Assembly: GCF_023634065.1 (NCBI RefSeq)
Contig: NZ_JALKCV010000001.1
Span: 496,001 to 560,000, forward strand
Source: Microbulbifer litoralis
GTDB taxonomy: Bacteria; Pseudomonadota; Gammaproteobacteria; Pseudomonadales; Cellvibrionaceae
Direction of reading: 5' to 3'
DNA: 64,000 bases
The position numbers were made by a program, and so were the translations under genes. The notes below the pieces were generated by a model. That model did not search any database. It worked only from the letters and a program-made list of their open reading frames with translations, and had not been told where the DNA came from. This document shows, one piece after another, positions 1-21,168 of the stretch; the first letter of the stretch is position 1; every line of letters begins with the position of its first letter.

Positions 1-3000
1 TACCGGAGGCCAGCGCCGTAGAGCCACCGCTATCTGCAACGGCGGCACCGTTCAGCGTCGTGGAATTGGGCACATAGGTGGTATTGGCCGGCACCTGGTC
101 GCGCAGGACAGATTCGATGGTGTTTTCATCGCCGATATTTTCCAGGCGCAGGGTGTAGCGCAGCGTGTCGCCCACCATCAGCAGTTCCGGATCGCCGGTG
201 ATGTCTTCGGAGGTTTTCTCGACGATCACTTCGGGGGCGGATTCGATCAGCAGCTCCGTCGGGTTGCTGTCGCCGTCGATGGTCGGATCGTCACTGTCCT
301 GCAGCAACTGGCCGGGCAACTGCACCTGGGCCTGGTTCAACACAACTGTGCCGTTGTCGATCACCGCAGCCAGGGTCACATCATAGGTCACTTCCAGGCT
401 GCCGTTCGGCGCCAGGCTCAGGTCGCCCAGATCCAGCAGCCCGCTGTTGTGTGCACCACCGCTCGGATCGGAATTGTCGGTCGCCCCGGAAACCACGATA
501 TTGGCCAGGGTACCGGGTTCGAACAACGGCAGTTCGTTGAGGCGGCCCAACTCATCGGTAATCGCGATATCGTCGATCTGCAGGTCCGATTCATTGGTCA
601 GCGTCAGGCGATAGCTGGCAGTATCACCGGGGCTGGCCGGGCTGTCGCTGAGAAGTTCCTTGGTAAAGGCGACACTGGGAACCAGCGCGGTGATCTCTAG
701 CGCATCCTCGTGCAAATCCGCACCGTCATCCGGTTCAGAGCGGGTGTATTCACGGCTCTCTACACCGGCGCTGTCCCAGCTCCACCAGTTGGTGACACCG
801 GCCACATTGGTCAGTACATCGCCGTCGACTGTGTCCGTATCCAACCAGGCCTGGTATTGCACCTGCAGGGTGGCACCGGCGGGCAGCGCGGCACTGCTAC
901 CGGTGGTAGTCACGGTGAAGCGGCAATCATCCCCGTTGAACGCAACACTGAAGTCCGTGCCCTCAGAGAGGTTTGACGCGTTTCCGCCGGCATCGATTAT
1001 CTGTGCCGTGAAATTATCCGGCGCTGTCTCGCACATGCCACCCGGATCGTTATTCGGCAACAGGTCAACGATGGTGATATCCCAGGCCGGACCGTCGCCC
1101 CGGTTTTCCACATTCAGGCTGAAGTTGCCGGGCAGCCCGGTCTGGACCTCGGTATCGCCGGTTTTGGTCAGTGCCAGCTCGTAGGGCTCGACAATGGTAA
1201 TCGGCGCCGAGTATTCACTGACCTCGCCCGTGCCGCGCCCGGCATCCGGGTTGTCGTCGGCGTAGTTGTAACTGTAACTGGCGCGGCTGGTGAAGCTGTT
1301 GCCGTATTCGTTGGTGGCAGTATCGCGCAGCATCAGGGTGACATCGATCACCGCCTCATCGCCGGCTTCCACATCGATACCGCTGGCGGGATCCTGAATA
1401 GTCAGCAATCCGCCGTCCACGGACCCCTGTGGATTGAAGGCGATATTGCCGGATACCTGCTCGGCGCCGACAAACGCCAGATCGACCGGATCCAGGCCGG
1501 AATCCGCCAGATCCATTTCTATCGCCACATCGTGCAGTGCGCCCGCAGCGGGAACCGTAATGCGATAGACAAAGGGTTCGCCGATGGAGGCCGTTTCGCG
1601 GCTGGCGGGTTCCACCGCGATCAGCAGCGGCTGTGCGTCCGGGGTGCTGAAGGCCACACTTACCGGATCGGACGGCCCGTAGGGCTGGCGATTTTCCAGC
1701 GCGGCGCCTTCGGGGATATCGCTTTCACCGAAGGAGTAGTACCACTCCACATAGGCGTTGTTGCTGATCTGCAGACCTGCAGCGATATCACTGTCTGCAT
1801 TCACTTGGTAAACAACTTCCATAGTGCCGCCCGCGGGAATTTCATTGAGGAAATTCCACACGGTTTCGCCGGAGGTTGCATCAAACGTGGGTTGCAGCGG
1901 ATTGGTCGTGTCGCCATCGACGCTGATGGTCTGAACACCGCCCTGGCGCAGTCCCGCCGGGATTACATCGCGCAGCACGATATCGTAGGCCGGCGCCGTA
2001 CCGTCATTGGTGATAGTGGCGGTAAAGGTGATGGTCTCGTCCGGCGTCAGTGCATCGGTACCGTCCGGAGTCGCCGTCAGGGCAAAATCCAGATCCGGTT
2101 GCAATAGATCCAGGGAGACTTCTTCGGAAAGTACCGAATCGCTGCCAGCGGCCGTCCGGAACTCGAAGGCGGCGCTGTTGGGTAGCGGAATAGTCGGCGC
2201 GTTCAGTTCCAGGACGTCTCGCTGTACACGAGTGCGATAGGTGATGACCAGTTCTTCGCCGGAGGTATTCACCAGTTCGCCCAGGTCCCAGCTCACTGCG
2301 CCGCTGGCCTCCGGCTGCGGTTCCTGTGCGAGGCTGTAGTCCATGCCCTCGGCGCTGATGGAGACGGTATCCACAAATACCATGCCCTGCGGCAAGGTGT
2401 CGGTGATCACCGCATCGGGCAATGTGCCCCGCTGCGCGCCCAGGCGCAATTCATAGGTCACCAGATCGCCGATACGCAGCTCGCCGTCACCGAGCGGAGC
2501 CGTTTCACTGAGTGCGCTTTTCGTCAGCGTGGAATTGTTGCCGACCGCCAGTGGCGGCAGGGACTGCGGACCGAGGAAGTAATTATTCAGCGCATTCGCG
2601 TCCGGCATGTCGGATCCATTGCGCTCGATATACTGCGCATCGCCCTGCTGGCTGGTCCACTGGGCGGTGGTATCGCCACCCAGTTCCTGGCCGGCGAGCA
2701 CACTGTCCAGCACGCGGACATCGAATGCCAGGGTGCGGCTTTCACCCGCTGGAATGTCGGTACCCGCCACGGCGTTCCAGGCCAGCGTCTGCGCCTCATT
2801 GACACCGTCGCCAGTCACGGTAAACAGCCCGTCGTCAATGGCGGTGCCATTGAAAGTGGTCGTACCCGGTTCGTAAACCCAGCCCAGGCTCAGCTCTTCC
2901 AGTATTGAGAGATCGTGCGCGGTAGCGCCATTGGCACCCTGCTCGGAGAATTCCAGCGTGAAGTGATAGATATCGCCGGCGACGGGTTCGGTGTTGCCGC

Positions 3001-6000
3001 TCTGGTTCACGGCTGCCTTGGCCAATACCAGTTCCGGCTCGACAATGGTGACCTGCGCCGCCTCGCCTTCCATTTCCCGGGTGGCGCCTGCCTCGCTGTA
3101 AGTGTAGAGGGCACTGGTATCAATGGTGACACCGGACTGCGCTTCGGGGACATTGTCCACCCAGGCGTTGACGACGATATCCCGGGTCTCGTTTGGAGGA
3201 ATATCGCCAATATCGAAGGTGAGCGTCTCACCATTCTGCGCAGGCGTCGCCGCGGTTCCATTCACGGTAACAGTGTCGATCTGTACAAGGGTGCCCAGCC
3301 CAGCAAGGACATTTTCCACTTCGACGTCTGCGAGCGTGGAGCTGGTGATGGGATTACCCGGTACACGGATACGGTAACTGACCGACTCGCCGATGGGCGC
3401 CAGGCCATCGTCGGGAGACTCGAGAGCCAACGTCAGGGGACCGGCTTCGGCAACCGGCGTCAGCAACTCGAAACAGTTGGGCAGGCCGGCGCTACACTGT
3501 GGAGCAACATCCGTTCCATAAAGCCGACGATTAACGACGCCTTCATCTTCCAGGGAAGCGTAACTGCTGGGGTGGAAGCTGTTGTACCAGGTGTGGCCAC
3601 TGGGGATATCCGTGTGCAGCCCCACGTTGTATTCGATGCTCAGGCAGTCTCCCGGCTGGCCCGTTTCAGCCAGTACGCCATCGAAAGTGAACTCTATAAC
3701 GCCATTGGTTACGGTATGGCTGTAGGTGGCCGGCTGGCCGCCGATCAGTACCTGCTGGATGGCAATGGTACTTTCATCAAATTCCGGGTTGGCCGGATCC
3801 GCGTTGAGCGTATCGGTTACCACCGGATCATAGGCGGGGGCGCCGCCTGTGTTACAGGCCTGCAGACGGAAGTTCATCACCTCATTGGCAATGTCCGTTA
3901 CTGAATAAGGACTAGCCACACTGTTGCGGGTGTCGGTTTTTGCCAGATCGCTGATATTCGGCTGCACCACCCAGATACTGGCCTGATCCTCGCGCGGCTC
4001 ATCGATGCCATCGTAAGTCAGCTCGGCGCTGTTGATGCGCTCTATTTCACCACTGCCGGCAGGGAAAGCACTGATATCATCCAGCACAACTGCGGTATAG
4101 ACAATGGTAAACGGGGGGGTTGAATCACTCTCTGCTGTGATGTTACCCAGTTGCCACTCCAGGGCGGTTGCACCGGGAGCAGGTTCAATGGGTTCCTGAT
4201 CGCAGGTAAAGCCGTTTACGCCGCAATCGATAGATTCCACGGACACCAGTTCCAGCCCCACCGGTAATTGGTCGGTAACCACCACATTGCTAGTCGTGCC
4301 AGGCTGCAGGCCCAGGTTGAGAGTATATTGAACCGTATCGCCGATACGCGCACGTGAGGGGTCACCCCAGGCTGTGGATTCGGCGGTTTTGCTGAATACG
4401 GTGTTATCCTCGGTAGTTACCGATTCTGAGGCTTCGTTGCAGTATATATTCGGGGCAGTAGTAGCGGGGCAGCCCTGACCGTGGCGCTGATAGTCTCCCG
4501 GATAGGTATCCTGACCCGGCACACCGTGATCCAGAGAGGTCCAGTCCACATATACGGTGTTATCGATGGCACTGCCAAAAGCCGAAAGTACCGTGGTGTG
4601 ATAAACCAGTGTCAGGGTTTCGCCCGGAGCGATATCCAGGTTGTTATCACCGTTCTCACGCCCCCATACCAGTGCGCCATCACTGTCTCGGACGCCAGGC
4701 GGGGAATCGGCATCATTGATCGTGGCGCCGTCCAGGCGCAATTGTTCCGGCACCGGCAGAATATCGGCAATATTTACATCGAAGGCAGTGGAGACATTAT
4801 CCCCGGTGGCATTGGTGATCTCGACGGTATAGTCCAGTGCATCTCCGCTAACTGCACTTTCCGCACTCGCGGTCTTGGTAACCGTCAGTACCGGTTCCGT
4901 CACTGCAATCGGTCCCGCCTCGGCAGTCCGGCTTTCCCGGCTGCTGTCCTGGCCGTTGTCATACTCCAGGTTGGCCGCATTGCTCAGCTCGGTTCCGGCC
5001 TGGTTTCCATCCACATTTGCAATACGCGCAAAGTAAGTGATGCGGATTACCGGATCGATAGTACCAGTCCCGGTGATATCGTCCTCGGTATGGGTCGCTA
5101 CCATACCGATATCCCAAGCGATATCGCCAGTGCTACCCGCAACCGGATGATCTCCGCGGAAAGACTCACAGAATTCTTCTGGCGCTTCGCCGTTGATCGT
5201 GAGAATGCTGTCGTCGTATTCACAGCGGATGCCATAGCCCTGGGCGTCGTTATCAGCCAGTACATAACCTGCAGAGAGAGTATCCGTTACCAGCACATTG
5301 TCGGTAACACCTTCCGGCAGAGAGATTTCCAACTCAAACTTGCGATGGGCACCGATAGCGCGGGAGTCGGCTTCAACGCTGTACTGCGAAGTATCGGTAA
5401 CATCGGTCTTGCCAAGTTCCAGGCCGGGAACAACAATGGAATCCTCGGCTTCGGTGTCATAGTCGTTGATGCCGGCCACGGGATTTGGATCCCCATCATC
5501 AATGGAGAACCAGCCGTTGCGCATACCGTCTTCGGCACCGTCTGCACCGATGGCACCAGCGCTGAGAGCGGGGTCGATGTTCAGGTTCAGGTTGCGGTTG
5601 GGCAGGGACTGCCAGACAGCCTCAATGGTGTTGGCCAGTTCTTCGTGGGGTGATACATCCACTCCATCATCATTTTCACCAACCACACGCACCTGGAAAC
5701 TGAATTCCACAGGTTGGCCCTGGGCGATGGCATAGGGAGAAGCCCACTCAGTGCCGGCGGGCGCATCCGGATTGGGATCATCCCAGTAGAAAATCGGCGC
5801 GTCTTGTTCATTGGTATCAACCAGCGGTGCCGGTGTACCGTTCAAGCCGGCTTCGCTGCCGGGCACATAGCGATATTTTGTGTTGCGCAGATCGTCCAGT
5901 ACACGCAGGCCGTAGGCGGTGCCACTGGTATCGCCATCCTCATTACTGTTGTTGGTGGCCCTGACGGTGACAGTGACAATATCGTCGCCATCGACATTTT

Positions 6001-9000
6001 CCACGGCCTCGTCAAAAGTCTTTTCCAGGACAACCCGGGGGCCGTTGACGTGCACGGTAATAGGCGGCGGCACAAACACATTGGATTCATTTTCAGAGGA
6101 GCCGGCCGGCAGGTAGGACATATAGGAGTCCCCGTTACCGTTGACTACCAGATCTGAACCATGCCCGGTGAAATTGTTGTTCTCCACCCGCACCACGAAG
6201 GAAACCCTGACAGGGATCAGACCGTCGCTATACATGGCGCGATCGTATTCGAGTAGATGCTGGAACCCATACTCCCAGGTCACTGAGTCTCCCGCCCCCT
6301 CGCAGCCGCTGATTTGCGGAGTCAGGGGGGCGCTACTGTCGCCCGGGAACCACGTGGTGCCGTCAATACTGCGCAGGTCTTTTGCCTCCGCGTCAATACA
6401 GCGCAGGCCATCGGGTAACTCGGCGTGGAAGGTGAAATCCCCCAGGCGCGCCGCCGGTACGCGACCGGTGAGGCGCAAGCGGATTTCCTCACCCACTACT
6501 GCCTCCAGCTCGCCCTGGCGCGGTGCGTACTCGCCGAGGGTGGACTGGCCGATAGCCTCGATGGGGTCCACATCCACCTCATAGATGGTCATGGTGGCAC
6601 TGTCTGAAGCACAGTGTTCACTCTCATCGTCCGAATTGACGCAATAGATACGCGCACCGGCGGAACGGGGGGTATCCGGGGTTTCAGGCAAGCCGGTGGA
6701 CGCCAGGGGATGATTGGTATTGGGTATGGGTACTACTGTCTGCTCCCCGGATTCCCCCCTCAGGCTGTCGTAGCGGAAAATATCCGCAACGTTGGTAAAA
6801 CTCTGGCCCGGAGCCACAGTGCGGTGGGGGCTGACCCGGTACTGCAGCACCACCTCGCTGCCCGGATCTATCTGTTTCAGCTTGTCGGATTCTTCATAGG
6901 AGAAGGTGATATGGGCCGGACTGCCACCGTTGAGACAGTGCGGTGATGACTCCGGGTCTGTATGGTCATAGGTGTAATCCGCCCGGCCCGTGGCTGTTCC
7001 CACGATACCGGCCTGAGGTCCGGCGGCATCCCCGGGAATATTGTCGATACCATCGTCATCAAATGCGCCATTGACCGCCCAAACGCACATCTGGCCGCCG
7101 TCGTCCAGGACATCGGTAATCACGACATCGTAGGCGGGGGCGCGGGCCACATCATCAGCCGCCGCTTCGTTCTCGACAGTCAAACGGTAGACAAAATCAT
7201 CGAACTTGCTGCCCTCGGCGGAAGTGTCCCACTGACATGCATTGACATCGCCCGCCGCACCGCTGAGGTTGCAAACCTCCTTGGTGATACTCAGCCTGGG
7301 CTCCGCCATCTGTGTCTGCGCAGTCCATTCCTGCCATTGGGGGTAGCCGGGGTAGGACGGGTTACAACCCTGGTTTTGCGTGTCGTAAACAGGGTTATCC
7401 CAGTCTTCTCCGGACTTGAAGCAGGCATTCTGTGCAGGGCTGCCACTACCGTCATTGGCAATAGTCTGCTGATCGATAATGCCACCGCCCTGTTCCGCAA
7501 AGGTAACCTGGAAACGACTGCGGCCATAATCGACACTGATATTGGCGTGCTGGTTCGGGTCTGCGACTGCATCCTCCGACTCGTTGCGCAGGCGGGTGGT
7601 CATGTTGGCCAGGAACCAGCGGTTCTTCGTTGTGACAGAAGTGCCACCGAATGTCCAATTCAGGTTTCCGCCACCCAAGGGTGCGGCCGGAGTAAAGCCG
7701 CCGGGAGTAATGACACTGTCGCAGACGGAATTCGGGGAGCCGGGTAGCCCTCCAACAGTACAGAGACTGGTCAATTCCTCTTTGCTGACATAGTGCTGCG
7801 GGCCGGTACCACTGTCATCACCACCGGCATGTGCGGGAATGGCGTCGGCTACGGCGATGGAATCCACAGTGACATTCCAGCCAGGGGTTTCAAACCCGAA
7901 CCAACCGCCGGCATAGATATCGAATTCACATTCCTCGCCGATAAGAATCTGCGGCGGACTGATCCGGCCGTCGCCATCGCCGCCCCCCCGATTGGCGGCT
8001 TCCTTACAGGTTCCGGGCACGTATCGCTTGAGCAGGTTGAAACCCAGCGCCTTGGCGCGAACCGCGTCGAGAGTGTAGTTGTTGGCAAGTTGCTGGGAGG
8101 GCGTGGTGCCGTTTACAGGATCATTCAAGTTGGCCGGCGGGGGGTAAACCAGGGCCTCATCGCTGATGGCATAATTGGCCGGATCCGAGTAATCTCGGCC
8201 CTGCTCCGCCAGGGTGATCATACCGACTATATCGGCGCGCATGGTGAGGTCGTCGGCGCCGGCACTGTGATTTTTACTGACTAGGAATTCCAGGGATGTA
8301 TTGGGGTTATTGCTACTGTAACCACCTCCCAGCTGACCTAGGTCACAGAGATAGACGTTGGCATTTTCTGGCAGGGGGTTGCCATCATCGTTTGGGGTGG
8401 GGTCGTTTCGCCATGCCGGTGTATTCCACAGTGGAATCTGTGCATCCGTCTGGTTCGGTACATTCATATCAGCTGGCAGATGAGGGGGATTACCATCCGC
8501 CAACTGACATTGTGCCGGCGGGCCCTCTACGATAATGGCTTCACCGAAGGTAACGTAAAACAGGTAGTCGCTGGCTGTGTGACCGCCGCTGTTCCAAATA
8601 TTCACCGTAACTGGCGTAGTACCCTCGTCACGGATGATATAAAGAGGATGTGGGATATCAACGTTGAGGTTTTCTGGATTCGGGGTAAATATCTGGCTTA
8701 CCGTCTGGTTGGAACGCGTAGAGCCGTTGGCGTTACTGTCACAGAAGTCGCCCCACTGTACTCTCAAGTTGTTTGTCAGGGTTCCCATTGAAGCCGGATC
8801 AAAAGCAGTCCCACTCTCATCATGCTCGTCCAGATCCGCCATACGATCGTAATAGGTCAGGGTTTCATTCTGGTTGACCTGTACGATACGAAAGGTGATT
8901 GTCGCCACGTCGCCGTGGCGCATCAGATCTTCCTGATAGCTCTGCTCGTTCGCAAAGCTTCCATCACTGGTCAAATAGAAATTAGGCGCTTTCAAAGCCG

Positions 9001-11004: not shown

Positions 11005-12384
11005 TCAGGCGGCCGGGAGGAAGTCGATCGGGTAGAGGATGGTGATAGTCGGGACACCCTCTTTGGCGCCGAAGTTAAACCGTTTTACCCTCGCGATGAT
11101 CTTCGCATTGAGCGGCGGTGAATCCATATCGCTGGACTCGACCTGGGCCAGGGAAACCGAGCCGTCGGGTTCGATGGTGATCTTCAGGACCATCTTGCCC
11201 TGCAGTGCCGGGTTCTTGCGCAGTTCGCGGTTGTAGATGCGATACAGCGCGGCCTTGTAGCGGTCGAAGACGATCTGGATCTCTTCATCGGTACGGGATG
11301 GGCCCACACCGTCGCTGAGAGGCCGGTCCTCGCCTGCAAAGTCGCCCTCGGTGCCGATGGAGCTCTCCACCCGCGAGAAGGCCACACCGTCGAGCGCCTG
11401 CCCGGCACCGCCCACATTGCGGCTGAGTTCGGCGGTATTGATACCGCCGCTGCCGGCCTTGGCCTGTGCGGTGATAAGCGAGCGCTGGCTGCGATTTTCC
11501 TTCTTGCCGGCGGTGCTGAGCTGGGTCTGCTGGCCGAGGCGGTCGTCCAGGTCGTCTTCCATCAGGTCCTGGAAGTTGTCCTTGAAGGCCAGTACACCGG
11601 CGCGCTCCGCCTTCTTGCGGGCTTCTTTCTTCTCGGTCTTGCTCGGCTTGGGCTCTTCCTTGGCCACCTTCTGCTGCTTGGGCTCCGGCTTCTTCTCTTC
11701 CTTCTTCGGCTGCGGCTTCTCGGGCTCCGGCGGCGGTTTGGGTTTGGTTTTCTTCTCGATCACCAGCTTGGCCAGGCGCTCGGGAATCTCCACCACCTCA
11801 TCCTCTTCCGGCTCCGGCAGTGTCCATTGCGGAACCATATAACCCAGGAACAGGGCCATCAGCAGCGATGCGAACAGGCAGCGACGGAAACGGCGCTCGT
11901 CCTCGCCCTGTGTATGCCAGGGCATCTGCGAGGGGCGGTATTCGCCCTGCTCGATATCCCGGGTGACTTCAAATTCGAACTGCGCCTCTTCCTCATCGCG
12001 GCGGATCTGGTCCGCGCGGGCATCCAGTTCGAAGATATCGTCCCGGCAGTCCTCAATACTGTCGAGAACGCGCTTGCGCCGCTCCTGTAACAGATCCAGG
12101 TTGGCGTTGTAGACGCTGACCGTCCGCTCGATGCGGTGGATAACCGCTTTGGCGGAGTCTTCCCGGTAGTCGTCGGCCCAGAAGAGATCGCCGGCCCCCT
12201 GCTCTTCCAGCTTGTTGAGGCGCTCGGATATCTCGTCGAGAAGCTGGTGCTTGTTCTCGTCCTTGCGCAGCTCGGTCAGCTTATCTTCTACTTGCCGCTG
12301 CTCGCCTTCAAGCACGCGCAGCCGTCGGCGAACCTGTTCCAGTTCGCCGCTCAGCACCTGCTTCTGTTGAAGAAAATTACTCAC
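11005..12384 (-). CDS. AgmX/PglI-type TonB-like energy-transducing protein
   Basis: 459 residues, starting with GTG at 12384 (no better start is visible). An N-terminal coiled coil (residues 1-60, with more helix to about 150) is followed by one membrane segment at about 169-187. Next is a Pro/Lys/Glu-rich TonB-like spacer at about 200-260. The C-terminal domain (about 360-459, with DEEIQIVFDRYKAALYRIYN and KITIEPDGSVSLAQVESS) is of the AgmX/PglI type, related to TonB C-termini. The family couples an ExbB/ExbD motor to envelope partners, as GltG/GltJ do in Myxococcus gliding. It is the last gene of the operon, 9 bp after the ExbD gene. The long cytoplasmic coiled coil before the membrane segment is unlike classical TonB. 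The physiological function is inferred only. Confidence 0.8.
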   Translation of the reverse strand: MSNFLQQKQVLSGELEQVRRRLRVLEGEQRQVEDKLTELRKDENKHQLLDEISERLNKLEEQGAGDLFWADDYREDSAKAVIHRIERTVSVYNANLDLLQERRKRVLDSIEDCRDDIFELDARADQIRRDEEEAQFEFEVTRDIEQGEYRPSQMPWHTQGEDERRFRRCLFASLLMALFLGYMVPQWTLPEPEEDEVVEIPERLAKLVIEKKTKPKPPPEPEKPQPKKEEKKPEPKQQKVAKEEPKPSKTEKKEARKKAERAGVLAFKDNFQDLMEDDLDDRLGQQTQLSTAGKKENRSQRSLITAQAKAGSGGINTAELSRNVGGAGQALDGVAFSRVESSIGTEGDFAGEDRPLSDGVGPSRTDEEIQIVFDRYKAALYRIYNRELRKNPALQGKMVLKITIEPDGSVSLAQVESSDMDSPPLNAKIIARVKRFNFGAKEGVPTITILYPIDFLPAA

Positions 12385-12393: not shown

Positions 12394-12945
12394 CTAACCT
12401 TGAGCTGCTTTCTGAATGACCGCCAGCGAAACCTTGGTGTACCCAGCATCAGTGCAGCTGGACATCACTTTCTTGAGCAGGCTGAACGGTATGGTTCTGT
12501 CCGCGAGAATATTCACTTCCGGCGGCAGCGCGGATTGGTCTTCACCTTCCTCTCCAGCAGTCTCTGCCTGCTGTTCATCCTGTTCGTTACTGGCGACCAG
12601 AATGGCCTTGTCCATCTCCGAGATCATCGCCTGCTTGATGGCTTCGATGATTCTCTCCTCGCTATTGATCACATCACTGGTCGCGACAATTGACTTGGAT
12701 TCGACCAGGATTTCCTCATCGGTAACCATCAGCGTTACCGTCTCGCGCGGCTTGGTCTCTACGACCGAGTCCGGCAGGGTGATCACTTTTGGCGGCTCAA
12801 GGGCCTCGTTGCTGGATGTATTGGTCAACAGGAAGAAGACCAGAATGGTGAATACATCCATCAGCGATGTCAGGTTCATGCCCTGGGTCTTCTTACGCTT
12901 GTGGCTCCGGGCCATGCGTTTCATGCGTCGGCTTTGTCGTTTCAC
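12394..12945 (-). CDS. ExbD/TolR family biopolymer transport protein
   Basis: 183 residues with a GTG start whose GTGA overlaps the stop of the preceding ExbD gene, which indicates translational coupling. A very basic cytoplasmic N-terminus (residues 1-22) is followed by one membrane segment (about 27-41, TSLMDVFTILVFFLL) carrying the conserved Asp30 that lines the proton path in ExbD/TolR/MotB-like stators. A periplasmic domain follows (about 60-183) with an acidic insertion near 125-140. It should form a stator with the ExbB-like protein at 13541-14329. The family is clear; the machine it powers is inferred from context. Confidence 0.88.
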   Translation of the reverse strand: MKRQSRRMKRMARSHKRKKTQGMNLTSLMDVFTILVFFLLTNTSSNEALEPPKVITLPDSVVETKPRETVTLMVTDEEILVESKSIVATSDVINSEERIIEAIKQAMISEMDKAILVASNEQDEQQAETAGEEGEDQSALPPEVNILADRTIPFSLLKKVMSSCTDAGYTKVSLAVIQKAAQG

Positions 12946-13541
12946 GGCGCATCTCCTATGGATATATCCGGGAACAGAACCACATGCTCAACGGCCTCCG
13001 GGTCGTCGGGGTTACTGCCCTCTTCGCGCACATCGGCGCCGCGCACGGCGTCCATGACACCGACCAGGTGCTCATAGGCGATATCCGGCTCCATCAGCAG
13101 GATCGAATCTGTCTTTTCCGGATAGCTGCTTTTTATATCCAGCAGGGCCAGGCTCAGTTTCTCCAGATCGTAGACATCCTCTGTGGGCAGTACGGGCTGC
13201 GCGGCCTGCTCAGCGGAAGCATCGGTATCCGCCGCTGTCTCGCTGCCGGTTTCCGTCGTCTCGCCCTGCCCTGCAGTGCCCAGGTTGGGAAAGCGGGCGA
13301 CCACTTTCTCACCATCACTGATCTCCAGTGCGTCTTTGCGCACCACGACCTCAACCGTGACCGTCGGATCGTCCGGGGCGCCGCCACCGGCACCGGAAGG
13401 CATATTCAGCTCGAGAATCGTAACCCGGGAAAATACGGCCGATACCAGCAGAAACGGCACCAGCACCACCATCAGGTTCAGGAAGGCGGTAATGTCCAGC
13501 TCCGGGGCTTCTTTATCTCTCCCATGGCGCCGTCTTCTCAT
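12942..13541 (-). CDS. ExbD/TolR family protein, variant lacking the channel Asp
   Basis: 199 residues. The ATG overlaps the ExbB stop (TAATG), so the genes are coupled. A basic N-terminus precedes a single membrane segment (about 17-36). At the place where ExbD proteins have the proton-path Asp, this protein reads FLNLM, so Asn22 appears to replace it. The periplasmic part is acidic and Ala/Glu-rich (about 100-130). With the downstream ExbD it makes a two-ExbD motor, the arrangement known for AglR-AglQ-AglS of Myxococcus. The Asn substitution suggests a structural or regulatory rather than proton-carrying partner. Confidence 0.85.
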   Translation of the reverse strand: MRRRRHGRDKEAPELDITAFLNLMVVLVPFLLVSAVFSRVTILELNMPSGAGGGAPDDPTVTVEVVVRKDALEISDGEKVVARFPNLGTAGQGETTETGSETAADTDASAEQAAQPVLPTEDVYDLEKLSLALLDIKSSYPEKTDSILLMEPDIAYEHLVGVMDAVRGADVREEGSNPDDPEAVEHVVLFPDISIGDAP

Positions 13542-14329
13542 TACACTTTTTCCGCTTGCTGTTCTTCGGCTGTGGTTTCTTCGCTATCGGGTTCGGCAGT
13601 GTCTTCCGCAGCCGACGCCTGCTGCTCCTCCTCCACAGGCTCCGGGGAAACCTCTGCCTCTTCGGCCGGCTCATCAGTTCCGGTATCCCGGCGGCGGCGG
13701 GAGGACATGGCGATAATATTCAGTGCCTTGACCGATACCATTTCCAGGCTGTCGACGATCTCGCCGGTCAGGGAGTTCAGCAGGGCGTGAATGATCAGCA
13801 GCGGAATACCGGTCATCAGGCCGAATGCGGTGGTGTTCATCGCCACCGAGATACTGGCCGACAGCAGGTCGGCCTTTTCCGCCGGGTTGGCGTTGGCTAC
13901 TGCGGTAAACGCCTCGATCAGGCCCATAATGGTACCCAGCAGGCCCAAGAGTGTGGCGATATTGGAAAAGAGTGCGACGTAGGGCGTGCGTTTTTCGAGC
14001 TGGGGAATAATCTCCATCATGCTCTCTTCCATCGCGATCTCGATGTCCTCGCGCCGGCGTACGGCCCCCTGGCGGGCGAGGCCCATCGCCAGCACCTGGC
14101 TGACACCGGATTTGTCCTGCTTGACCAGGTTGCGCGCGCGATCGAAATCACCGGAGTTCAGCACCGGCTCCAGCTTGTCCCACATGGCCCGGTTGGTGTG
14201 GCGCTCGTAAATCAGGCGGATATAGCGCTCCACCGCCACCGCGATCCCCAGCGCGGCAACCACCAGGATCGGGTACATGAAGGTACCGCCTGTCTGGAAG
14301 AACGCGATTACGCTGTTGAAAAAGTCCAT
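13541..14329 (-). CDS. MotA/TolQ/ExbB family proton-channel protein
   Basis: 262 residues. The first membrane segment (about 15-35) is followed by a cytoplasmic loop with KQDKSGVSQVLAMGLARQ and a second membrane segment containing ATLLGLLGTIMGLIEAF, the diagnostic TolQ/ExbB signature. A third segment contains GLMTGIPLLIIHALLN. The C-terminal 45 residues are acidic (EPAEEAEVSPEPVEEEQQ). The family forms pentameric proton channels around ExbD dimers at the inner membrane. It is the first motor gene of the cluster, followed by two ExbD genes and an AgmX-like gene, matching the AglR position in Agl-Glt systems. Confidence 0.9.
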   Translation of the reverse strand: MDFFNSVIAFFQTGGTFMYPILVVAALGIAVAVERYIRLIYERHTNRAMWDKLEPVLNSGDFDRARNLVKQDKSGVSQVLAMGLARQGAVRRREDIEIAMEESMMEIIPQLEKRTPYVALFSNIATLLGLLGTIMGLIEAFTAVANANPAEKADLLSASISVAMNTTAFGLMTGIPLLIIHALLNSLTGEIVDSLEMVSVKALNIIAMSSRRRRDTGTDEPAEEAEVSPEPVEEEQQASAAEDTAEPDSEETTAEEQQAEKV

Positions 14330-14427
14330 TACAAGCCCTCTTTAGAAAATACTGCAGTAATTTGTTGAATCTTTGTTGTGCGCCACAGGCGCACGGTGTT
14401 TCTGTCCGTGCCCGGCCGGGAGTCCGC

Positions 14428-14748
14428 TCAGTCCCCGGAGAGACTCAGCTCATAAAATTCCAGTTCGCGCATAAATACCTCTTTGTCCAGAGGTTTCAGC
14501 TTGCCATCCATCAGGCTCGAGGCCAGGTCGCTTTCCACACCCACCTCGGAGCTTTTCCAGGGGACGATATAGAGCGATTTTGGCGCTTCCTTGTTGCCGA
14601 TGATCGAGATACCGGAGAGTTCCTTGACGTCGTTGTCGACCTTCTTCTCCTCGCTTTCCGACTCGCCCGACTGTGCAAACGCCAACGCACTGCCCAGAGC
14701 AATCGGCAATGCCAGCGACAATGAACCTATCGCGATTCCCAGTCTCAT
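14428..14748 (-). CDS. Small secreted protein of unknown function
   Basis: 106 residues with a clear Sec signal peptide (MRLGIAIGSLSLALPIALGS, cleavage near AFA-QS). The mature part is short and acidic (SESEEKKVDNDVKELSG) and contains PKSLYIVPWKSSE, a pattern I do not recognise as a named domain. Its ATG overlaps the stop of the upstream TPR lipoprotein (ATGA), so it is translated with that gene. Its position inside the motor operon suggests a periplasmic accessory subunit; no specific activity can be assigned. Confidence 0.75.
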   Translation of the reverse strand: MRLGIAIGSLSLALPIALGSALAFAQSGESESEEKKVDNDVKELSGISIIGNKEAPKSLYIVPWKSSEVGVESDLASSLMDGKLKPLDKEVFMRELEFYELSLSGD

Positions 14749-15338
14749 TGTCCGGCCCTCCTTTTGAGATCTGCCATCCAGATAGTGACGTCTTTGTCTT
14801 CAGGTTCCAGCTGCAGGTAGTGTTGGAATTGTGCCAGAGCACAATCCAGATCTTGCAGATAGAGATCACATAAAATCCCAAGGTTTTTGATCAGGGGAAG
14901 ATATTGCGGGTGTTCGCCCAGCGCCGCACTATAGAGTTTGCGCGCCTCCTGGAACCGACCCTGTTTGCGGTACAGAACCGCCAGCTCATTGGTGGCCACC
15001 GGATTGTGTGGATCCCGCTCCAGTGCAGCCATGAACGTTTCTTCCGCGTGTTTTTCATCGCCACTTTTGAAGTAGGCAATCCCCAGATTGATATAGGGTG
15101 CTGGCAGGCGTTTTTCGCGCTCGATCACACTCTGCAGCAGTTCGATGGCAGCTGCATAATTCTCTGCGCGCAGATATTCCAGCGACTTCTCGAAGTCCCG
15201 GTTTACGCTGCCGGAAACATCGACCGAGGAGAAGTCCTCCACCTTTCCCGGCTTCGACGGTGCCGAGGCACACGAGGCCAGCAGTACCACCAGGGACAGA
15301 ACAGCCAGTCTTTGCAATGTTTTCTGGAGCTGAGTCAT
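14745..15338 (-). CDS. TPR-repeat lipoprotein (PilF/GltE-like)
   Basis: 197 residues. The signal peptide ends in the lipobox LLASC, so the mature protein should be lipid-anchored, with Ala at +2 favouring the outer membrane. From about residue 45 there are three to four tetratricopeptide repeats (for example APYINLGIAYFKSGDEKHAE and NELAVLYRKQGRFQEARKLY). TPR lipoproteins of this size act as assembly scaffolds, such as the type IV pilus pilotin PilF and the Glt TPR lipoprotein. It lies between the large TPR lipoprotein gene and the small secreted protein in the motor operon. Confidence 0.82.
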   Translation of the reverse strand: MTQLQKTLQRLAVLSLVVLLASCASAPSKPGKVEDFSSVDVSGSVNRDFEKSLEYLRAENYAAAIELLQSVIEREKRLPAPYINLGIAYFKSGDEKHAEETFMAALERDPHNPVATNELAVLYRKQGRFQEARKLYSAALGEHPQYLPLIKNLGILCDLYLQDLDCALAQFQHYLQLEPEDKDVTIWMADLKRRAGQ

Positions 15339-15395
15339 AAACCTTGTTTCTTGCCTTATCCGGAAACTTTATTCCGGGATACCCTCCCGAGGGGA

Positions 15396-18300
15396 TTAGC
15401 CTTTTGTGCCCGAAGCGGGCTCTTCCGTACTCGCCTGCTCCGGAGCCGGCGGCAGCGGCACGATGCTCTGTACATACTGGCCGGACTCCTCGGCCCTGGC
15501 GTAGCGTGCAGGTACCAGGCCGGCCAGCTTGCCGATACTCTTTTCCACCCAATTGTTGTATATGCCCATCCCCAGGAGCTCGACGTTCTTCTCGTGCACG
15601 GAGATCGCCTTCTCCTCAAACGGGTAGATCTGCTCCTCCAGTGCCAGCTCGTATTCCTCCAGCTCCAGCGGGCTCAGGTTTGTGGGCCGCTCGGATTCTT
15701 TCAGTGCGCGACTGAAATGCAGGTAGATTTCCGCCAGGTAGTAGGTTGCCGCCGCAGTCACATCGGCCACCTGGTAGTCGATCAGGTCGGAATAGGCACT
15801 GATTGCCGCCTTCATCCGCGTGCGCTTCCTGTTGAGGTTCTGTTCGATCGGTGCCACCAGCCGGATCTCGGTAAAGGCGTCAAAGCGGGGCTCCGCCAGG
15901 ATCAGGGCCGCGTTGCCCGCCAGGTAGCGGGTGCGGTCATTGCGCTGGTCGCCGCCGCGGAGCTCGATGCGCACCATCTGCTCGAGCTCATCCTTATAAC
16001 GCCCCTGTTCGCCGGCCGCCTTATATAACCCGGCAATCTTCTGCCGCGTTTCCAGTGCGGGCTCCATCGGGCTGGGGAAGAGCTTGACGTAGCGACGCAG
16101 CACCCGCAGGGCCTTCTCGTCGTCCTTGGCGGCACTGTAGAGGTCGGCGGCCTGGGTCAGGGCCTCCCGGCGCACGGCATCGTCCTCGGATTCCCGTTCG
16201 ATACGCTCGAACTCGGCGGCAGCCAGTAACAGTTCGCCACTCTCCTGGTAGACAACCGCCAGTTTCTTGGTGACATCCTTGATCAGCTTGTGCTCGGGGA
16301 AGTTCTGCCGGAAAGATTTCAGTACCGAAGCCGCCCGGCCCCAGTCTTCCAGCAGAATCAGCGATGCCGCGGCATCGTATTCGGCGGTAGCCAACAGGGT
16401 CGCGCCGGGCGCGGATTCGCGAATACGCAGGAAGTGCTTCGCCGCCGTGGCGTGATCCTCCTGCTTGCGTGCCAGTTCACCCTGTTGGTAGATGGAGGCC
16501 GCCAGGTTGTCGATCAACGCCGCGCGGTCTTCCGCATCGGCAGCAGTCAGGGCCAGGGCGTCGCCGTATGCCGACTCCGCCTCGACGAAGGCGTCCGTAT
16601 CGAACGAGGCGTGCCCCACCAGCATCCACGCGGAGCGACGGATGCCGGTCTCGGCCTGCGGGAATTTTTCCAGCAGCAGCCGGCCGTTGTGAATAGTCTG
16701 GGGAAAATCCTTCAGGCTGTACAGGTCTTCGACGGCGCCCACCATCACCTGTGCGGCCTTCTCGTGCTCGGGGAAGGTATCCGAAAACTGCAGCGAGGAA
16801 CGGATGACTTCCCGCTGGAAGGGCGCGCGCTTTTGTGCCGATGCGTCTTTCAGCGCATTGGCGAGGTTCTCGCGATAGGCGTAGACCGCGGCGTAGCCCG
16901 CTTCGCTGGATTTCTCGTGGGCCGGATATTCGTAGGCAGTGCGCTCGTACTCCCGCGCCGCGCCGTGGAAATCGCGGTTTTCCAACATCAGACCGGCGAG
17001 CTGGTGATTGATTTCCGGCGCACGGGGCCTGTCGCTGAACGACTCGAGATATTTCCGGTACCAGTGGATTGCCTCCCGGTAGTGCTCCGGCTTTTTGTCT
17101 TTGAGTTTCTTGTTCTGGTAGGCGGCATGATAGTGACCCGCCAGGTCGATCAGGTTGGTCTGCAGGAAGTCCACCACTTCGCCGTACTCGTTGACGTCGA
17201 AGACAGTCCAGTATTGCGCGTTCAGCGCGTAGGTGGTGGCGAAGTCTTTCTTCGCTTCCAGCACCAGTTTCGGGAAGCCGCCTTCTTGGTAGATCTCAAT
17301 CACACGGATGGAGAAATCCGCGGAAACCTTGTTCAGGGGGTTGCGATCCACGTAGAGATTGTAGGCTTCGGCCGCATCCTGGTAGCGGCGCTTGGTCAGG
17401 TAGTATTCGCCGAGATGGCTGTACACCATGGACTCGTACTGCCGCGAGCCCTTGCGCTCGAAGTAGTCGACGATGGAACGGGCCCCGCCCAGATAGGAAA
17501 AGCTCAGGCTGACGACGCGAAAGGTATCGTCGACATGCTTGCGCTCCACCTGGTTGCTCTGCTGTTCAAAGTCGTAGCCCTGGGAGAGCTTGTAATCGAG
17601 CATGGCGATGTAGTCATCCAGTGCCATCTCGTACATTTCCTGCTTGAACAGGGACCAGCCGCGCTTGTAGAGCGACAGCTCGAAGAAACTGGAGGCCTCG
17701 CCCATGGCGATAACCTTGCCGTACGCCTCCTCCGCGTCCAGGTATTTCTTGCGCGTGAAGTAGTACTCACCCAGGCGGAACCAGGCCTCATCGAGGTGGC
17801 GCGAATCGGGGAACTTCGCCACCATTTCCCGCAGCACTTCCACCGCTTTCTCGATCTCGCCGATCTCTTCGTAGGCGCGCGACAACTGGTACATGACCTG
17901 GTCGTTGCGGTCGTAGAGCGGGTACTTGGCCAACAGCTTGCGATAGAGGTTGATGGCTTCGCGCGCATTGGCTGCCAGCAGTGCATCCGGGTTGTCGCCC
18001 GGGGGGGCGATGGGGGTATCGTCTTCCGGAATATCGATTCCGGCGGTGGCCCTTGTCTCGAAATCGCTATCCGATTCGTCGTGCCGGGCGATGCCGCTGG
18101 CCGCTGCGGCCGTTGCAGCGGCGGCCGGGGCAACCGCTGTTTCCGGCGCGTCCATCTTGCGGCCCGGCCGGGTCGCCGACTCCGGGTCGATGGAGACCAC
18201 GGCGTCGCTGCCCCCGCCGGCGGCGTCGGCAACGGCGCTGTCAATGGCCCGGTCTTCCGCCCGGTGTGCCTGTTTGATCTTGAGGTCGGCGATACGGCGT

Positions 18301-18611
18301 ATCGCCTCCGGTGTCAGGTTGGTTTCCGGTGTTTCCTGCAGGTATTGCTGGTAGCCCGCCAGCGCTTTCTCGAGGCTGCCGTCGATATGCTGTTCCCTGA
18401 TTTCAATATCGACCTTCTGCAGGCTGGCAATGGTTTTGCCGCTGTTGCTCGCACAGGCGTTCAGCAACAGCGCCATGGAGGCCAGGGTGGCGCAGCGCAG
18501 AAAGACACGCCCTGCCGGGGGCTGGCTGTTTCTGCATGCCTGGATGGCCCCGTTTTTTTCGCCTGCGGGCAGGCTCCTGCGGCGGGAGACGGCGTTCAGG
18601 AGGGGATTCAT
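15396..18611 (-). CDS. Large TPR-repeat lipoprotein of the motor operon
   Basis: 1,071 residues. An unusually long basic N-region leads to a hydrophobic segment ending in the lipobox LLNAC (Cys53), predicting a lipoprotein. Residues about 130-200 are an Ala-rich low-complexity linker. From about 210 to 1000 there are many degenerate tetratricopeptide repeats (for example VMYQLSRAYEEIGEIEKAVE and AWFRLGEYYFTRKKYLDAEE). The C-terminus is Pro/Ala/Glu-rich. Proteins of this architecture accompany Agl-Glt-like motors as periplasmic scaffolds. The ATG overlaps the stop of the neighbouring TPR gene (ATGA), so the two are coupled. Function beyond scaffolding is inferred. Confidence 0.82.
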   Translation of the reverse strand: MNPLLNAVSRRRSLPAGEKNGAIQACRNSQPPAGRVFLRCATLASMALLLNACASNSGKTIASLQKVDIEIREQHIDGSLEKALAGYQQYLQETPETNLTPEAIRRIADLKIKQAHRAEDRAIDSAVADAAGGGSDAVVSIDPESATRPGRKMDAPETAVAPAAAATAAAASGIARHDESDSDFETRATAGIDIPEDDTPIAPPGDNPDALLAANAREAINLYRKLLAKYPLYDRNDQVMYQLSRAYEEIGEIEKAVEVLREMVAKFPDSRHLDEAWFRLGEYYFTRKKYLDAEEAYGKVIAMGEASSFFELSLYKRGWSLFKQEMYEMALDDYIAMLDYKLSQGYDFEQQSNQVERKHVDDTFRVVSLSFSYLGGARSIVDYFERKGSRQYESMVYSHLGEYYLTKRRYQDAAEAYNLYVDRNPLNKVSADFSIRVIEIYQEGGFPKLVLEAKKDFATTYALNAQYWTVFDVNEYGEVVDFLQTNLIDLAGHYHAAYQNKKLKDKKPEHYREAIHWYRKYLESFSDRPRAPEINHQLAGLMLENRDFHGAAREYERTAYEYPAHEKSSEAGYAAVYAYRENLANALKDASAQKRAPFQREVIRSSLQFSDTFPEHEKAAQVMVGAVEDLYSLKDFPQTIHNGRLLLEKFPQAETGIRRSAWMLVGHASFDTDAFVEAESAYGDALALTAADAEDRAALIDNLAASIYQQGELARKQEDHATAAKHFLRIRESAPGATLLATAEYDAAASLILLEDWGRAASVLKSFRQNFPEHKLIKDVTKKLAVVYQESGELLLAAAEFERIERESEDDAVRREALTQAADLYSAAKDDEKALRVLRRYVKLFPSPMEPALETRQKIAGLYKAAGEQGRYKDELEQMVRIELRGGDQRNDRTRYLAGNAALILAEPRFDAFTEIRLVAPIEQNLNRKRTRMKAAISAYSDLIDYQVADVTAAATYYLAEIYLHFSRALKESERPTNLSPLELEEYELALEEQIYPFEEKAISVHEKNVELLGMGIYNNWVEKSIGKLAGLVPARYARAEESGQYVQSIVPLPPAPEQASTEEPASGTKG

Positions 18612-20647
18612 TCTTCGCCTCCATCTTCGGGCGCTTCCAGTTCCGGCGGATTGTCCTGGGGAAGAGCTTCACCATCTTCCTCGGTGCCTTGCGACGAGGA
18701 TTGGTGCATCTCGATCCTGCGCTGGTCCTCGCGCTGTTCCTGCAGTTCGTTGGCGCGGTCGTAACTGTCCGCCAGGGCGAAGCGTGCCTTGATCTGGTAG
18801 CTCTCCAGCTGGGCCCGGCGTCGCTCCAGCTCGTCGACGGCGAGCCTTTCCAGCATGTTGCCCTGGCGCGCCATCAGGCGATCCAGCCGCTCCTGGGTGC
18901 GATTGACCTGGGCCCGCAGGCGGTCGATGGTGTCGTTGTAGCCTACATAGCTGTGCGTCGCCGCCTGGCGGCTGCGCACGTAAGAGTTGTATACCGCCTG
19001 CAATGCCTCGATCTCTTCGTTGAGTTCCTGCAGATGTTTGTAGGCATCGGTCAGCCTGTCATCGTACTGGGTGGCCAGGCGCCAGTTGAGTACGCCTTGC
19101 AGCCGCGCCACCCGCGCTTCGGTTTCGCCGCTGCTGAGGTTGGGGCTGCGCTGCAGCACGGAGCGGATTCTCCCCAGCCTCTGCAGTGCTTCCTGCTCTT
19201 CGGCCCTGGCCAGGTATTCCGGGCGCCGGCTCACCAGCATCTGCTCGATACGGCTGGCGAACCTGTCGCGCTGTTCTATACGCACCTGTATACGCGCATC
19301 CAGCTCGCGGAACTTCCGGTCCAGCCCCGGAAGCAGCGGCTCGTAGTAGGCGCGGCGCTGGCGGATGACATCCTCGTAGGCCGCCAGGCTGTCGAGCCAG
19401 GACTCGTTGCGTTCGAAGAGATCATTCAGGTCGCGGTAGTTGCGCAGGAATTCCTGATAGTCATTGTTGGCCATCAGATCCAGGAGATAGTGGGTCTCCG
19501 GCGCCCCCGGCAGGTCGCGCAGGGCGACGACCCAGTTCTTGACCTGGTTCGCCTCTTTGCGGCGCAGCGCCTCCAGGAATTTGCCCTCGCGGATACTCTG
19601 GATGGAACCGGTCAGGGTGTCGATTTCGCGACCGAAGGTTTCCAGCGCGCGGCCGTAGTTGATCGCGGCGGTGCTGTGTACATCCAGCTTGCCGTAGGCA
19701 AAGGGCACCGCCAGCATGACCTCCTGTACCGACTCATTGGTAACCTTGCGATCCTGCAGCATCTGCCAGGGCACCAGCGCGCGATCGTAGCGGCCCGCGC
19801 GCGCCTCGACCCAGCCGGCCCCGAGCAACGCGCGATTGGAGAAGGGCCCCTCCAGGTGCACGCGATCGAAATAGGGGCGGGCCAGCTCCAGTTCGCCGGA
19901 CTCCATCAGGTGCGAGCCAAGCAGCAGGTTGGTTTTGTCGTACAGGGCCTGCATGGCCGGTTCCGAACTGGAGCGCTTGCCCAGCGCCGTCAGTTCGAGG
20001 ATGCCGCGCTCGGTCCGGTCCGCCTTCAACAGCGCGATGCCGAGGTTGTATTCGACAAAACCGTCGAGCGACTCTTCTCCCTTCAGGTCCTCCAGCAGTT
20101 CCACCGCCTCTTCGAAGCGCCCCAGCTCCATATACACCCGCGCGCGCAGGAACTGTTCGTCGGGCCTCACCCGTTCCGGCACCCGCCCCTCGATCATCTC
20201 CAGGGCGTGCAGTGCATTGAGCGGCTGCTGCTTGTGGTACTGGATACGGGCCAGGCGATAGGCGGCCTCGTTGCGCACCGGCTGCGGGACATTGCCCTTC
20301 AGCACCGCCTCGATCGCGCGGCCGGCCTCGCGGTGCATACGATAGGAGAGCTCGAGATCGCCGACAGAGAACTCGGCCTGGCCCAGGTGCGCGGTAAACG
20401 GATCCAGCTCGGGCTCATCCAGGTTGCGGTACTGCTGTAGCTCCGTATCCAGCTCCACGATCGCATCGAAATAGTTTTCCTGGTAGGCCTGGTACATGGC
20501 CTCACCGAAGAACAGATCCTCGAGCTTGCCCGGTTGGTCGGCCACAGCGGCGGCCCCCGCTACCGCCGGCACGGCACACAGCGACAGGGCCAATCTGCGC
20601 AGCCGGGGGAGGGCGCGGAAGAGAGCAGAAGCCAGGGGAGCGCGCAT
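18608..20647 (-). CDS. Periplasmic TPR and coiled-coil protein of the motor operon
   Basis: 679 residues with an N-terminal Sec signal (about 1-35, cleavage near AGA-AA). Residues about 45-330 contain degenerate TPRs (AMYQAYQENYFDAIVELDTE, FLRARVYMELGRFEEAVELL). The C-terminal half (about 400-650) is predicted coiled coil rich in Arg/Glu/Gln, followed by an acidic tail. The stop overlaps the start of the large TPR lipoprotein by four bases. Together they look like a long periplasmic scaffold connecting the inner-membrane motor to the outer membrane. I do not recognise a more specific named family. Confidence 0.8.
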   Translation of the reverse strand: MRAPLASALFRALPRLRRLALSLCAVPAVAGAAAVADQPGKLEDLFFGEAMYQAYQENYFDAIVELDTELQQYRNLDEPELDPFTAHLGQAEFSVGDLELSYRMHREAGRAIEAVLKGNVPQPVRNEAAYRLARIQYHKQQPLNALHALEMIEGRVPERVRPDEQFLRARVYMELGRFEEAVELLEDLKGEESLDGFVEYNLGIALLKADRTERGILELTALGKRSSSEPAMQALYDKTNLLLGSHLMESGELELARPYFDRVHLEGPFSNRALLGAGWVEARAGRYDRALVPWQMLQDRKVTNESVQEVMLAVPFAYGKLDVHSTAAINYGRALETFGREIDTLTGSIQSIREGKFLEALRRKEANQVKNWVVALRDLPGAPETHYLLDLMANNDYQEFLRNYRDLNDLFERNESWLDSLAAYEDVIRQRRAYYEPLLPGLDRKFRELDARIQVRIEQRDRFASRIEQMLVSRRPEYLARAEEQEALQRLGRIRSVLQRSPNLSSGETEARVARLQGVLNWRLATQYDDRLTDAYKHLQELNEEIEALQAVYNSYVRSRQAATHSYVGYNDTIDRLRAQVNRTQERLDRLMARQGNMLERLAVDELERRRAQLESYQIKARFALADSYDRANELQEQREDQRRIEMHQSSSQGTEEDGEALPQDNPPELEAPEDGGEE

Positions 20648-20649
20648 GG

Positions 20650-21168
20650 TTACCAGTCCTTGAAGCGGATCGCGGACTCGGTACCGGCTATTTTGATTTC
20701 GACGAATTTGGGGCCGACTTGCTTTTCCACCTGATAACTGGCCGTTGCCCGGTATTCCCTGCCCGACGCCGATTTGCCGATAAAACTGACTTCCAGTGGG
20801 TGATTGCCGGCCTGTACATTGCCGGTAAAGATCTTCTGCACGCCGCCCTTCTGCAGGGCTTCGATCTCGCGGAAGGTATAGAGATGGTGGGCGACGACCT
20901 CACTGTCGAGCTTCAACTCCACCGATTCCAGGTTGAAAGTCTCCGCATCGGCGGTGGAAACGAAAAAAGAGACCTGGGTGTTCGATGGAAAGAGTAGCTT
21001 TTCCTCCAACTGCGACAGCTCGGCGGTCAGCCCGATCACATCTTTTTTTACATCCTGGATCTGCTCGTCGAGCCCGCGGATCTCGTCGCGACTTACGCTT
21101 CCAGTGCTCTGCGCAAAACAGGCAGAGGTCAAAAGCATAAAAAGGGTTATCTGTAGAAATCTGAACAT
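20650..21168 (-). CDS. Secreted protein with short coiled coil, first gene of the motor operon
   Basis: 172 residues from the ATG at 21168, chosen because it has an AGGTAGG ribosome-binding site 4 bases upstream and gives a proper signal peptide (MFRFLQITLFMLLTSACFAQ); an in-frame upstream ATG at 21213 would put 15 odd residues before it. The SAC-F sequence could also serve as a lipobox. A coiled coil (about 25-55) is followed by a beta-rich domain (about 60-172, with VSFFVSTADAETFNLESVEL). It probably docks onto the TPR proteins encoded directly downstream. No named family recognised. Confidence 0.75.
   Translation of the reverse strand: MFRFLQITLFMLLTSACFAQSTGSVSRDEIRGLDEQIQDVKKDVIGLTAELSQLEEKLLFPSNTQVSFFVSTADAETFNLESVELKLDSEVVAHHLYTFREIEALQKGGVQKIFTGNVQAGNHPLEVSFIGKSASGREYRATASYQVEKQVGPKFVEIKIAGTESAIRFKDW

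Follow-up and report, generated by a model that had tools for sequence, protein, structure and literature searches.

A 'core complex' of Agl-Glt parts together with an additional gene was described from gammaproteobacteria in 2011 (Luciano et al., PMC3169522) and was later called standalone in many of these bacteria (Wartel et al. 2013, PMC3858216); the available text of both papers gives its function in gammaproteobacteria as unknown. We analyzed an operon of this type and the giant DUF11 gene that follows it in a stretch of 64,000 nucleotides from Microbulbifer litoralis (NZ_JALKCV010000001.1, positions 496,001 to 560,000), the whole of which is called the window here. By its gene content, the motor encoded in the window resembles an Agl-Glt core complex, as an ExbB-type channel, two ExbD proteins, a GltG-like TonB-type protein and TPR proteins are encoded in one cluster, like in the gammaproteobacterial core. 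A sequence-only reading of the window had called the operon Glt-like, which was right in kind, a complex of such content being the one described in 2011 (PMC3169522). The available text of the two papers (PMC3169522, PMC3858216) mentions neither a giant protein nor a large barrel with the core complex, whereas the long-form clade of motors described below has both as regular partners.

Three other described systems can be compared with this locus. The AglRQS-Glt gliding motor of M. xanthus shares with it components of the proton channel and a transducer of TonB type that has a cytoplasmic part, but the matches to the M. xanthus equivalogs are far below the NCBIfam cut-offs (GltG 63.1 bits of 650, GltJ 32.5 of 450, GltE 43.4 of 225), and the candidate adhesin here is the DUF11 giant. 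The gliding and type IX secretion system (T9SS) of Bacteroidota, built around GldLM and SprB, has a likeness of working, in that a proton-driven motor is combined with a giant barrel and a giant adhesin of stalk-like build; it differs in that its motor belongs to another family, in that no T9SS-type C-terminal sorting domain was found in a Pfam scan of both parts of our giant (E 0.01), and in that the barrels share generic similarity only. As far as the available text of PMC8986121 goes, one proton motor of Flavobacterium serves both the export and the motion of SprB. Finally, the accessible parts of PMC12617251 and PMC9210967 assign DUF11 to the stalks of fibrillar adhesins, and our giant has in common with these DUF11 (CLIPPER) adhesins its length and its tandem isopeptide-type stalk domains; the repeated stalk domains expected of a fibrillar adhesin are present in our own giant and likewise in three other giants scanned. 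Unlike these adhesins, the giant is accompanied by a dedicated motor operon and a dedicated barrel partner and has a conserved C-terminal module. No paper linking DUF11 giants to Agl-Glt-type motors was found in the literature searched, outside of which lay most subscription papers and all bioRxiv preprints. Type 11 secretion was dropped as a lead, as its texts, where available, mainly concern DUF1194 and were merely matched by the term DUF11.

Linkage of the motor, the giant and a barrel protein

As the sequence-only reading had stated, the giant lies directly downstream of the ExbB/ExbD/AgmX/TPR operon and in line with it; it is on the same strand, after a gap of 470 bp. The further claim of that reading, a DUF11 frame of more than 3,500 codons, also held, for the window contains a minus-strand frame of 3,511 codons (2-10534) that is open at the window edge. 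The C-terminal part, which that reading had advised seeking by extension of the contig, was found in the neighboring stretch, and the whole giant has 4,510 amino acids (aa) with a conserved C-terminus (contig C1, 493002-506534). It is adjoined downstream, outside the window, by the gene of the barrel protein, a 1,764-aa frame that from its first ATG has a 4-bp overlap with the giant's stop codon.

Homologs made up at least 7,517 of the 7,997 sequences scored for AgmX, 3,535 of 7,995 for the barrel protein and, for the C-terminus of the giant, 1,199 of 1,700. When genome contigs were scanned with 14 aligned AgmX homologs, 187 relatives were obtained, and the best 80 were kept, 27 from Microbulbifer and 53 others including gamma-, beta- and deltaproteobacterial records; metagenome-assembled genomes (MAGs) of unknown completeness are among these loci, and the cut-offs may miss divergent long forms. 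The operon genes are present in most of the 80 loci, as far as the contigs extend, and a match to the giant (E 1e-4 or better) is located downstream of AgmX on the same strand in 70 of them. Where at least 2 kb follow AgmX, a homolog of the giant is the first frame of at least 500 codons in 69 of 74 loci; the five without one are a Gallionella MAG (L102) and four deltaproteobacterial loci (L082, L098, L100, L108). Six of the ten genomes that lack a giant in the stretch fetched were searched whole (those of L070, L082, L098, L100, L102 and L108, leaving out L034, L064, L065 and L081), and DUF11 was found in four of the six and the barrel protein in five. A Desulfobacterales genome has the order giant (3,459 codons), barrel protein, motor. 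The order is changed there and the linkage kept, which we regard as the strongest single sign that the three components may be a working unit. In the class of this genome the barrel protein was found in one of 144 genomes, the same one (E 1e-60); the unit is rare there.

The barrel protein also co-occurs with the long form of AgmX. Among 61 genomes of the family, long AgmX (at least 395 bits, aligned from residue 11 or before) is present in eight, and the full-length barrel protein in the same eight; all eight have one frame between the two genes, of 4,510 aa here and of 2,830-4,526 codons in the seven others. The class sample of 274 genomes likewise includes eight with long AgmX (threshold E 1e-70), and the full-length barrel protein is in these same eight (in G316 as two pieces). 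A ninth AgmX match, in G111, represents a short form, its alignment starting at residue 151 and its frame having 316 codons. Giant and barrel are on the motor's contig in G000, G085, G203 and G233 of the class set; the giant is adjacent up to the contig end in G167, G152 has an open 744-codon frame without a giant match, and the contig ends soon after AgmX in G316 and G331. Because adjacency and co-occurrence recur across many genomes, the adjacency of motor and giant is beyond chance, and the two do stay together in relatives, a point on which the sequence-only reading had asked to be judged.

An AgmX match lacking the N-terminal part is present in 46 of the 61 family genomes and represents a common short form. 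No match to the giant or to the barrel protein was found in any of the 11 short-form loci fetched (eight of the family and three of the class: L147, L149-L155, L208-L210), in which most core genes are present; L148, with a barrel paralog and no motor, was left out of this count. The downstream frames differ among the six short-form loci listed. Our own genome contains such a second, short-form motor operon (C5:322164-323090, L147), for which the fetched 14 kb contain no match to the giant or to the barrel protein. A tree built from 115 C-terminal parts of AgmX, 110 of them different, separates 90 long forms from 25 short ones with full support (100/100). Long-form AgmX is one clade, and the window operon belongs to it. 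The sequence-only reading would have given up the link if the motor were widely found without a DUF11 giant, which is true of the short-form paralog and false for the long-form clade that includes this operon.

Three family genomes (G005, G014, G040) have barrel proteins at 54-56% identity to our own, about as distant as that of the Desulfobacterales genome (54%). Their AgmX sequences nest with Chromatiales-, Gallionellaceae- and Nitrosomonadales-type sequences, away from Microbulbifer, and two of the three are identical to Aestuariicella and Pseudomaricurvus records. The position of these copies apart from Microbulbifer in the AgmX tree suggests transfer of the unit as one block.

Giants and barrels also occur without a linked motor. 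Six loci with separate giant and barrel genes (L156 on contig C22 of our own genome and five others) and eight loci with giant and barrel in one open frame contain no motor genes in the fetched flanks. These pairs and fusions (L156, L169-L181, L207) resemble the giant and barrel protein of the motor-linked locus in their succession of immunoglobulin (Ig)-type repeats, SdrD_B, mostly an OmpA domain, and then a barrel, with 26-47% identity in the barrel region; they differ in the missing motor, in the zero or one OmpA domain of the barrel protein and in the single frame of the eight fusions. Fused frames reach 11,777 codons (G178), and of four fusions among the eight that were scanned with Pfam, all have Ig-type repeats ahead of the barrel and three have OmpA (one below cut-off). 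We counted OmpA domains with a hidden Markov model (HMM) built in this work from five domains, three of our own barrel protein and two of fusions. Motor-linked barrel proteins have three such domains in 12 of 13 cases and two in the remaining one, and barrel proteins without an adjacent motor have zero or one in 14 of 14; L148, L187 and L206 (G280) were left out, L187 and L206 being cut by the contig, and L207 (G334), outside the count, has one OmpA region by tblastn. In two loci without a linked motor (L156, L173), the giant itself also has an OmpA domain. Searched whole at E 1e-10, the genomes G132 (97% complete) and G074 (75%) gave no AgmX match, and G132 holds a giant-barrel pair.

Two of these loci deserve a description of their own. 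On contig C22 of our own genome (L156), a DUF11 protein with a C-terminal OmpA domain is followed by a 1,264-codon barrel paralog and then by another DUF11 frame, with no motor within the 14 kb fetched. The last 1,997 codons of the 11,777-codon frame on contig C2 of G178 (L168, L169) contain DUF11 repeats and cadherin-like ones, a barrel, and a match to OmpA that stays below cut-off.

Parts of the locus

Pfam identified DUF11 in each of the two parts of the giant (E 4e-36 and 6e-48). DUF7507 and DUF7619 were likewise found in each part, whereas SdrD_B was found in the C-terminal one. Over its last 420 aa, our own giant is 53-83% identical to twelve others. Of 18 loci compared, three from Microbulbifer (27-43%) and, weakly, L079 (26%) match the N-terminal 400 aa, and the best stretch of no Pfam family falls there. 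Compared with four relatives, identity is 72-81% in the last full segment of 450 versus 28-50% in the first, and it falls towards the N-terminus in three of the four. This gradient would fit a C-terminally anchored fiber with a variable tip. The last 90 aa or so may be a degenerate OmpA-like domain, of which there is a weak hint: the alignment with one relative points to OmpA likeness, the profile comparison is weak (probability 0.6%), and our OmpA HMM found no domain in the giant. M. donghaiensis (L196) has two giants in tandem (3,694 and 3,446 codons) followed by one barrel gene, with one motor ahead. Our own genome has a further DUF11 frame of 2,804 codons on contig C13 (L157, 576-8987, minus strand), with no barrel match in the 14 kb fetched.

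A public cluster places the start of the barrel protein 51 codons after that first ATG. Its OmpA domain scores 64.9 bits against a Pfam cut-off of 27.2, our HMM finds three copies, and the barrel is C-terminal. The barrel region (residues 640-1764), modeled from 25 sequences, has a predicted local distance difference test (pLDDT) score of 76.5 and a predicted template modeling (pTM) score of 0.66. The model lists 34 strands of at least 8 residues from model residue 487 on and about 7 more of at least 7 residues between model residues 229 and 397, and alignments with whole porins cover model residues 229 to 1125. From the strand listing and the porin alignments, we read the model as one closed barrel of some 36-40 strands. 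Its fold has generic similarity to outer-membrane barrels, with chains of SprA among many barrels and not above them. In public records this barrel partner is named 'OmpA family protein' or 'flagellar motor protein MotB' (e.g. P0128, P0130, P0151). A classical autotransporter (type V) is one chain, and giant and barrel are two genes here and one frame only in relatives. Beyond the barrel gene, three frames on the other strand have the ordinary functions of a zinc-type dehydrogenase, a PepSY protein and a TonB-dependent receptor, and four minus-strand frames gave no Pfam family.

The sequence-only reading had named dedicated secretion genes at the giant's other end as evidence against its proposal. 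The barrel gene does stand there, so that the letter of this objection applies, but the barrel protein looks like the outer-membrane part of the unit. We dropped it as an argument against the link between motor and giant, as it appears to belong to the unit with whose long AgmX it co-occurs.

The operon upstream of the giant (11005-21213, minus strand) has nine genes, coding for a MotA/ExbB protein, two ExbD proteins, an AgmX/TonB-type protein, three TPR proteins and two small proteins (Table 1). The first ATG of its last frame is at 21168, which is also the end coordinate given by the sequence-only reading. A consensus scan, the only method applied to the gap before the giant, gave no terminator-like or promoter-like match. 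Long-form AgmX consists of residues 1-168, a single membrane helix, a proline-rich stretch and the AgmX/TonB C-terminal domain. The charge rule, applied by eye, predicts a cytoplasmic location for residues 1-168, which the short form is without; a basic cluster lies on their side of the helix. Our own AgmX has 84% identity to that of M. taiwanensis, and its nearest named relatives are Microbulbifer. All 82 long-form loci examined have the membrane Asp of ExbD2, and in 80 of the 82 ExbD1 has Asn in the corresponding position (one has Asp and one is not readable); in short-form loci, the Asp is present in 8 of 8 and ExbD1 has Asn in 6 of 8 and Ser in 2 of 8. The pair seems to combine one intact and one changed proton site, and by the short-form counts this is not special to the long form. 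The profile scan gave matches of TolQ/TolR/TolA type in the motor. The 106-aa protein has no Pfam or NCBIfam family match, and the 187-aa first gene is present in most loci that reach that far. A tRNA-Leu(gag) gene (window 21670-21755) is located just upstream of the operon; it was found too in 6 of 11 Microbulbifer loci scanned, and none was seen in 16 other loci, whose upstream stretches are short.

Table 1. Features of the motor-giant locus, with positions counted in the window
Feature	Position	Strand	Basis or remark
Giant DUF11 (CLIPPER) stalk protein	1..10534, continuing beyond	-	Open reading frame (ORF) and Pfam
Gap between AgmX gene and giant	10535..11004	.	470 bp
AgmX/GltG-like energy transducer, long form	11005..12384	-	NF033768, 66 bits, cut-off 40
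ExbD/TolR-like subunit ExbD2, keeps membrane Asp	12394..12945	-	Alignment of loci
Second ExbD/TolR-like subunit ExbD1, Asn at same place	12942..13541	-	Alignment of loci
MotA/TolQ/ExbB proton-channel subunit	13541..14329	-	Family matches
106-aa protein, present in the operon of most loci	14428..14748	-	ORF
197-aa TPR protein, lipoprotein-like start	14745..15338	-	GltE, Tgl and PilW matches, all below cut-off
1,071-aa TPR protein, GltD-like by place and make-up only	15396..18611	-	TPR
679-aa TPR protein, C-terminal part charged and coiled-coil-like, resembling GltC in place and make-up only	18608..20647	-	
187-aa protein, first gene of the operon, first ATG 21168	20650..21213	-	One Pfam match, below cut-off

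What the three components may do together

The pairing of a motor with an adhesin proposed by the sequence-only reading stands in so far as the predicted functional link between motor and giant is well supported, because of the conserved adjacency, the co-occurrence and the changed order with kept linkage in another phylum; the exporting, anchoring or dragging that it ascribed to the motor is at the level of the proposals that follow. We give an even chance to the reading that the motor operon, the giant and the barrel protein are one machine, a motorized fibrillar adhesin. The giant would be exported by Sec and would stand on the cell surface as a long stalk whose variable N-terminus is at the far end, and its conserved C-terminus would be held at the very large outer-membrane barrel, with the three OmpA domains of the barrel protein gripping peptidoglycan in the periplasm. 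The ExbB/ExbD proton channel would work the AgmX transducer, and AgmX and the TPR proteins would reach the barrel-giant complex and apply force to it. The motor would then act on the displayed fiber by traction, tension or retraction, and export is the less likely action because related barrel-giant pairs without an adjacent motor exist (in G132 with no AgmX match genome-wide at E 1e-10). The gene content, the linkage, the co-occurrence, the domain make-up and the conservation gradient are seen directly, whereas we infer the surface location, the topology, the contact between motor and barrel and the output.

Several results weigh against the motorized adhesin. The search patterns for the 80 loci came from a Microbulbifer-rich alignment, and neither the genome counts nor the Fisher p values for co-occurrence (3e-10 for the family and 1e-15 for the class without G280) take kinship into account. 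The Gallionella MAG (L102/G065) has a long-form motor and no DUF11 or barrel match in the whole MAG, either from real loss or from an incomplete bin, and the whole-genome search of G064 found the barrel and no DUF11 match. In G280, of the class, a barrel piece (residues 529-1650) on a 3.5-kb contig occurs in a genome where only a short-form motor was found; with 49-58% identity it is as similar as the motor-linked ones, and its OmpA number is unreadable. The giant of one relative, G035, has fairly even identity (59-77%) apart from the first segment. The term 'motorless' refers to the fetched flanks only, and G223, G334 and our own genome hold a short-form motor elsewhere, which might serve a giant-barrel module in trans. 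Three peptidoglycan-binding domains also argue against long-range travel of the barrel.

The alternative that survives best is that the motor powers the export or assembly of the giant, with AgmX driving the opening of the very large barrel or translocation through it. We consider it rather unlikely. The predicted 36-40 strands would put the barrel in the size class of the T9SS translocon SprA, and SprA chains are among the generic barrel matches. TonB-type transducers act on outer-membrane barrels, and a short-form motor is encoded elsewhere in some genomes whose module has no motor linked to it. The Flavobacterium motor that serves both export and motion of SprB, according to the available text of PMC8986121, is a precedent for such a role. 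Export is opposed by the related pairs and fusions of giant and barrel whose fetched flanks contain no motor genes, and by G132, which has no AgmX match at E 1e-10 in its whole genome. The presence of three OmpA domains, for which a secretion pore has no obvious need, also speaks against it.

The same three OmpA domains, typical of motor-linked barrel proteins only, would suit an envelope tether like Tol-Pal, with the motor exerting an inward pull on the outer membrane by way of the OmpA-rich barrel protein and the giant serving as a mere passive coat of the surface. The TolQ/TolR/TolA-type matches in the motor and the common occurrence of the short-form motor without an adjacent giant agree with such a tether, which we nevertheless find improbable, as it leaves unexplained both the giant beside the long-form motor in 69 of 74 loci and the tandem giants of M. 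donghaiensis behind one motor. That the genes are neighbors only, spread by transfer or inherited in place without joint work, is very improbable: the block does appear transferred, with the copies of three family genomes apart from Microbulbifer in the AgmX tree, and module and short-form motor each exist alone, but the order is changed and the linkage kept in Desulfobacterales, and the number of OmpA domains co-varies with the motor.

If the motorized adhesin is taken further, the locus could represent a way of driving a giant adhesin by a motor that arose independently in Pseudomonadota and Desulfobacterota, the third such design and parallel to GldLM-SprB and AglRQS-CglB, in which a proton motor with one-Asp/one-Asn ExbD subunits crawls, reels in or tensions attachments; we propose this tentatively. 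Equally provisional is the architecture that goes with it, where a fiber of about 1,600 to more than 4,500 residues would stand on a barrel of about 36-40 strands that three OmpA domains brace against peptidoglycan.

What the Agl-Glt core does in bacteria that do not glide has been a question since 2011, for which the long-form clade, with its regular giant and giant-barrel partners, offers a concrete and testable cargo. If the motor acts on the fiber, bacteria that can be cultured, Microbulbifer and Alcanivorax among them, would have a new motorized adhesin; if the motor powers export, proteins several thousand residues long would have a new route of secretion. In both cases, the barrel protein deserves a better description than the names it has in public records.

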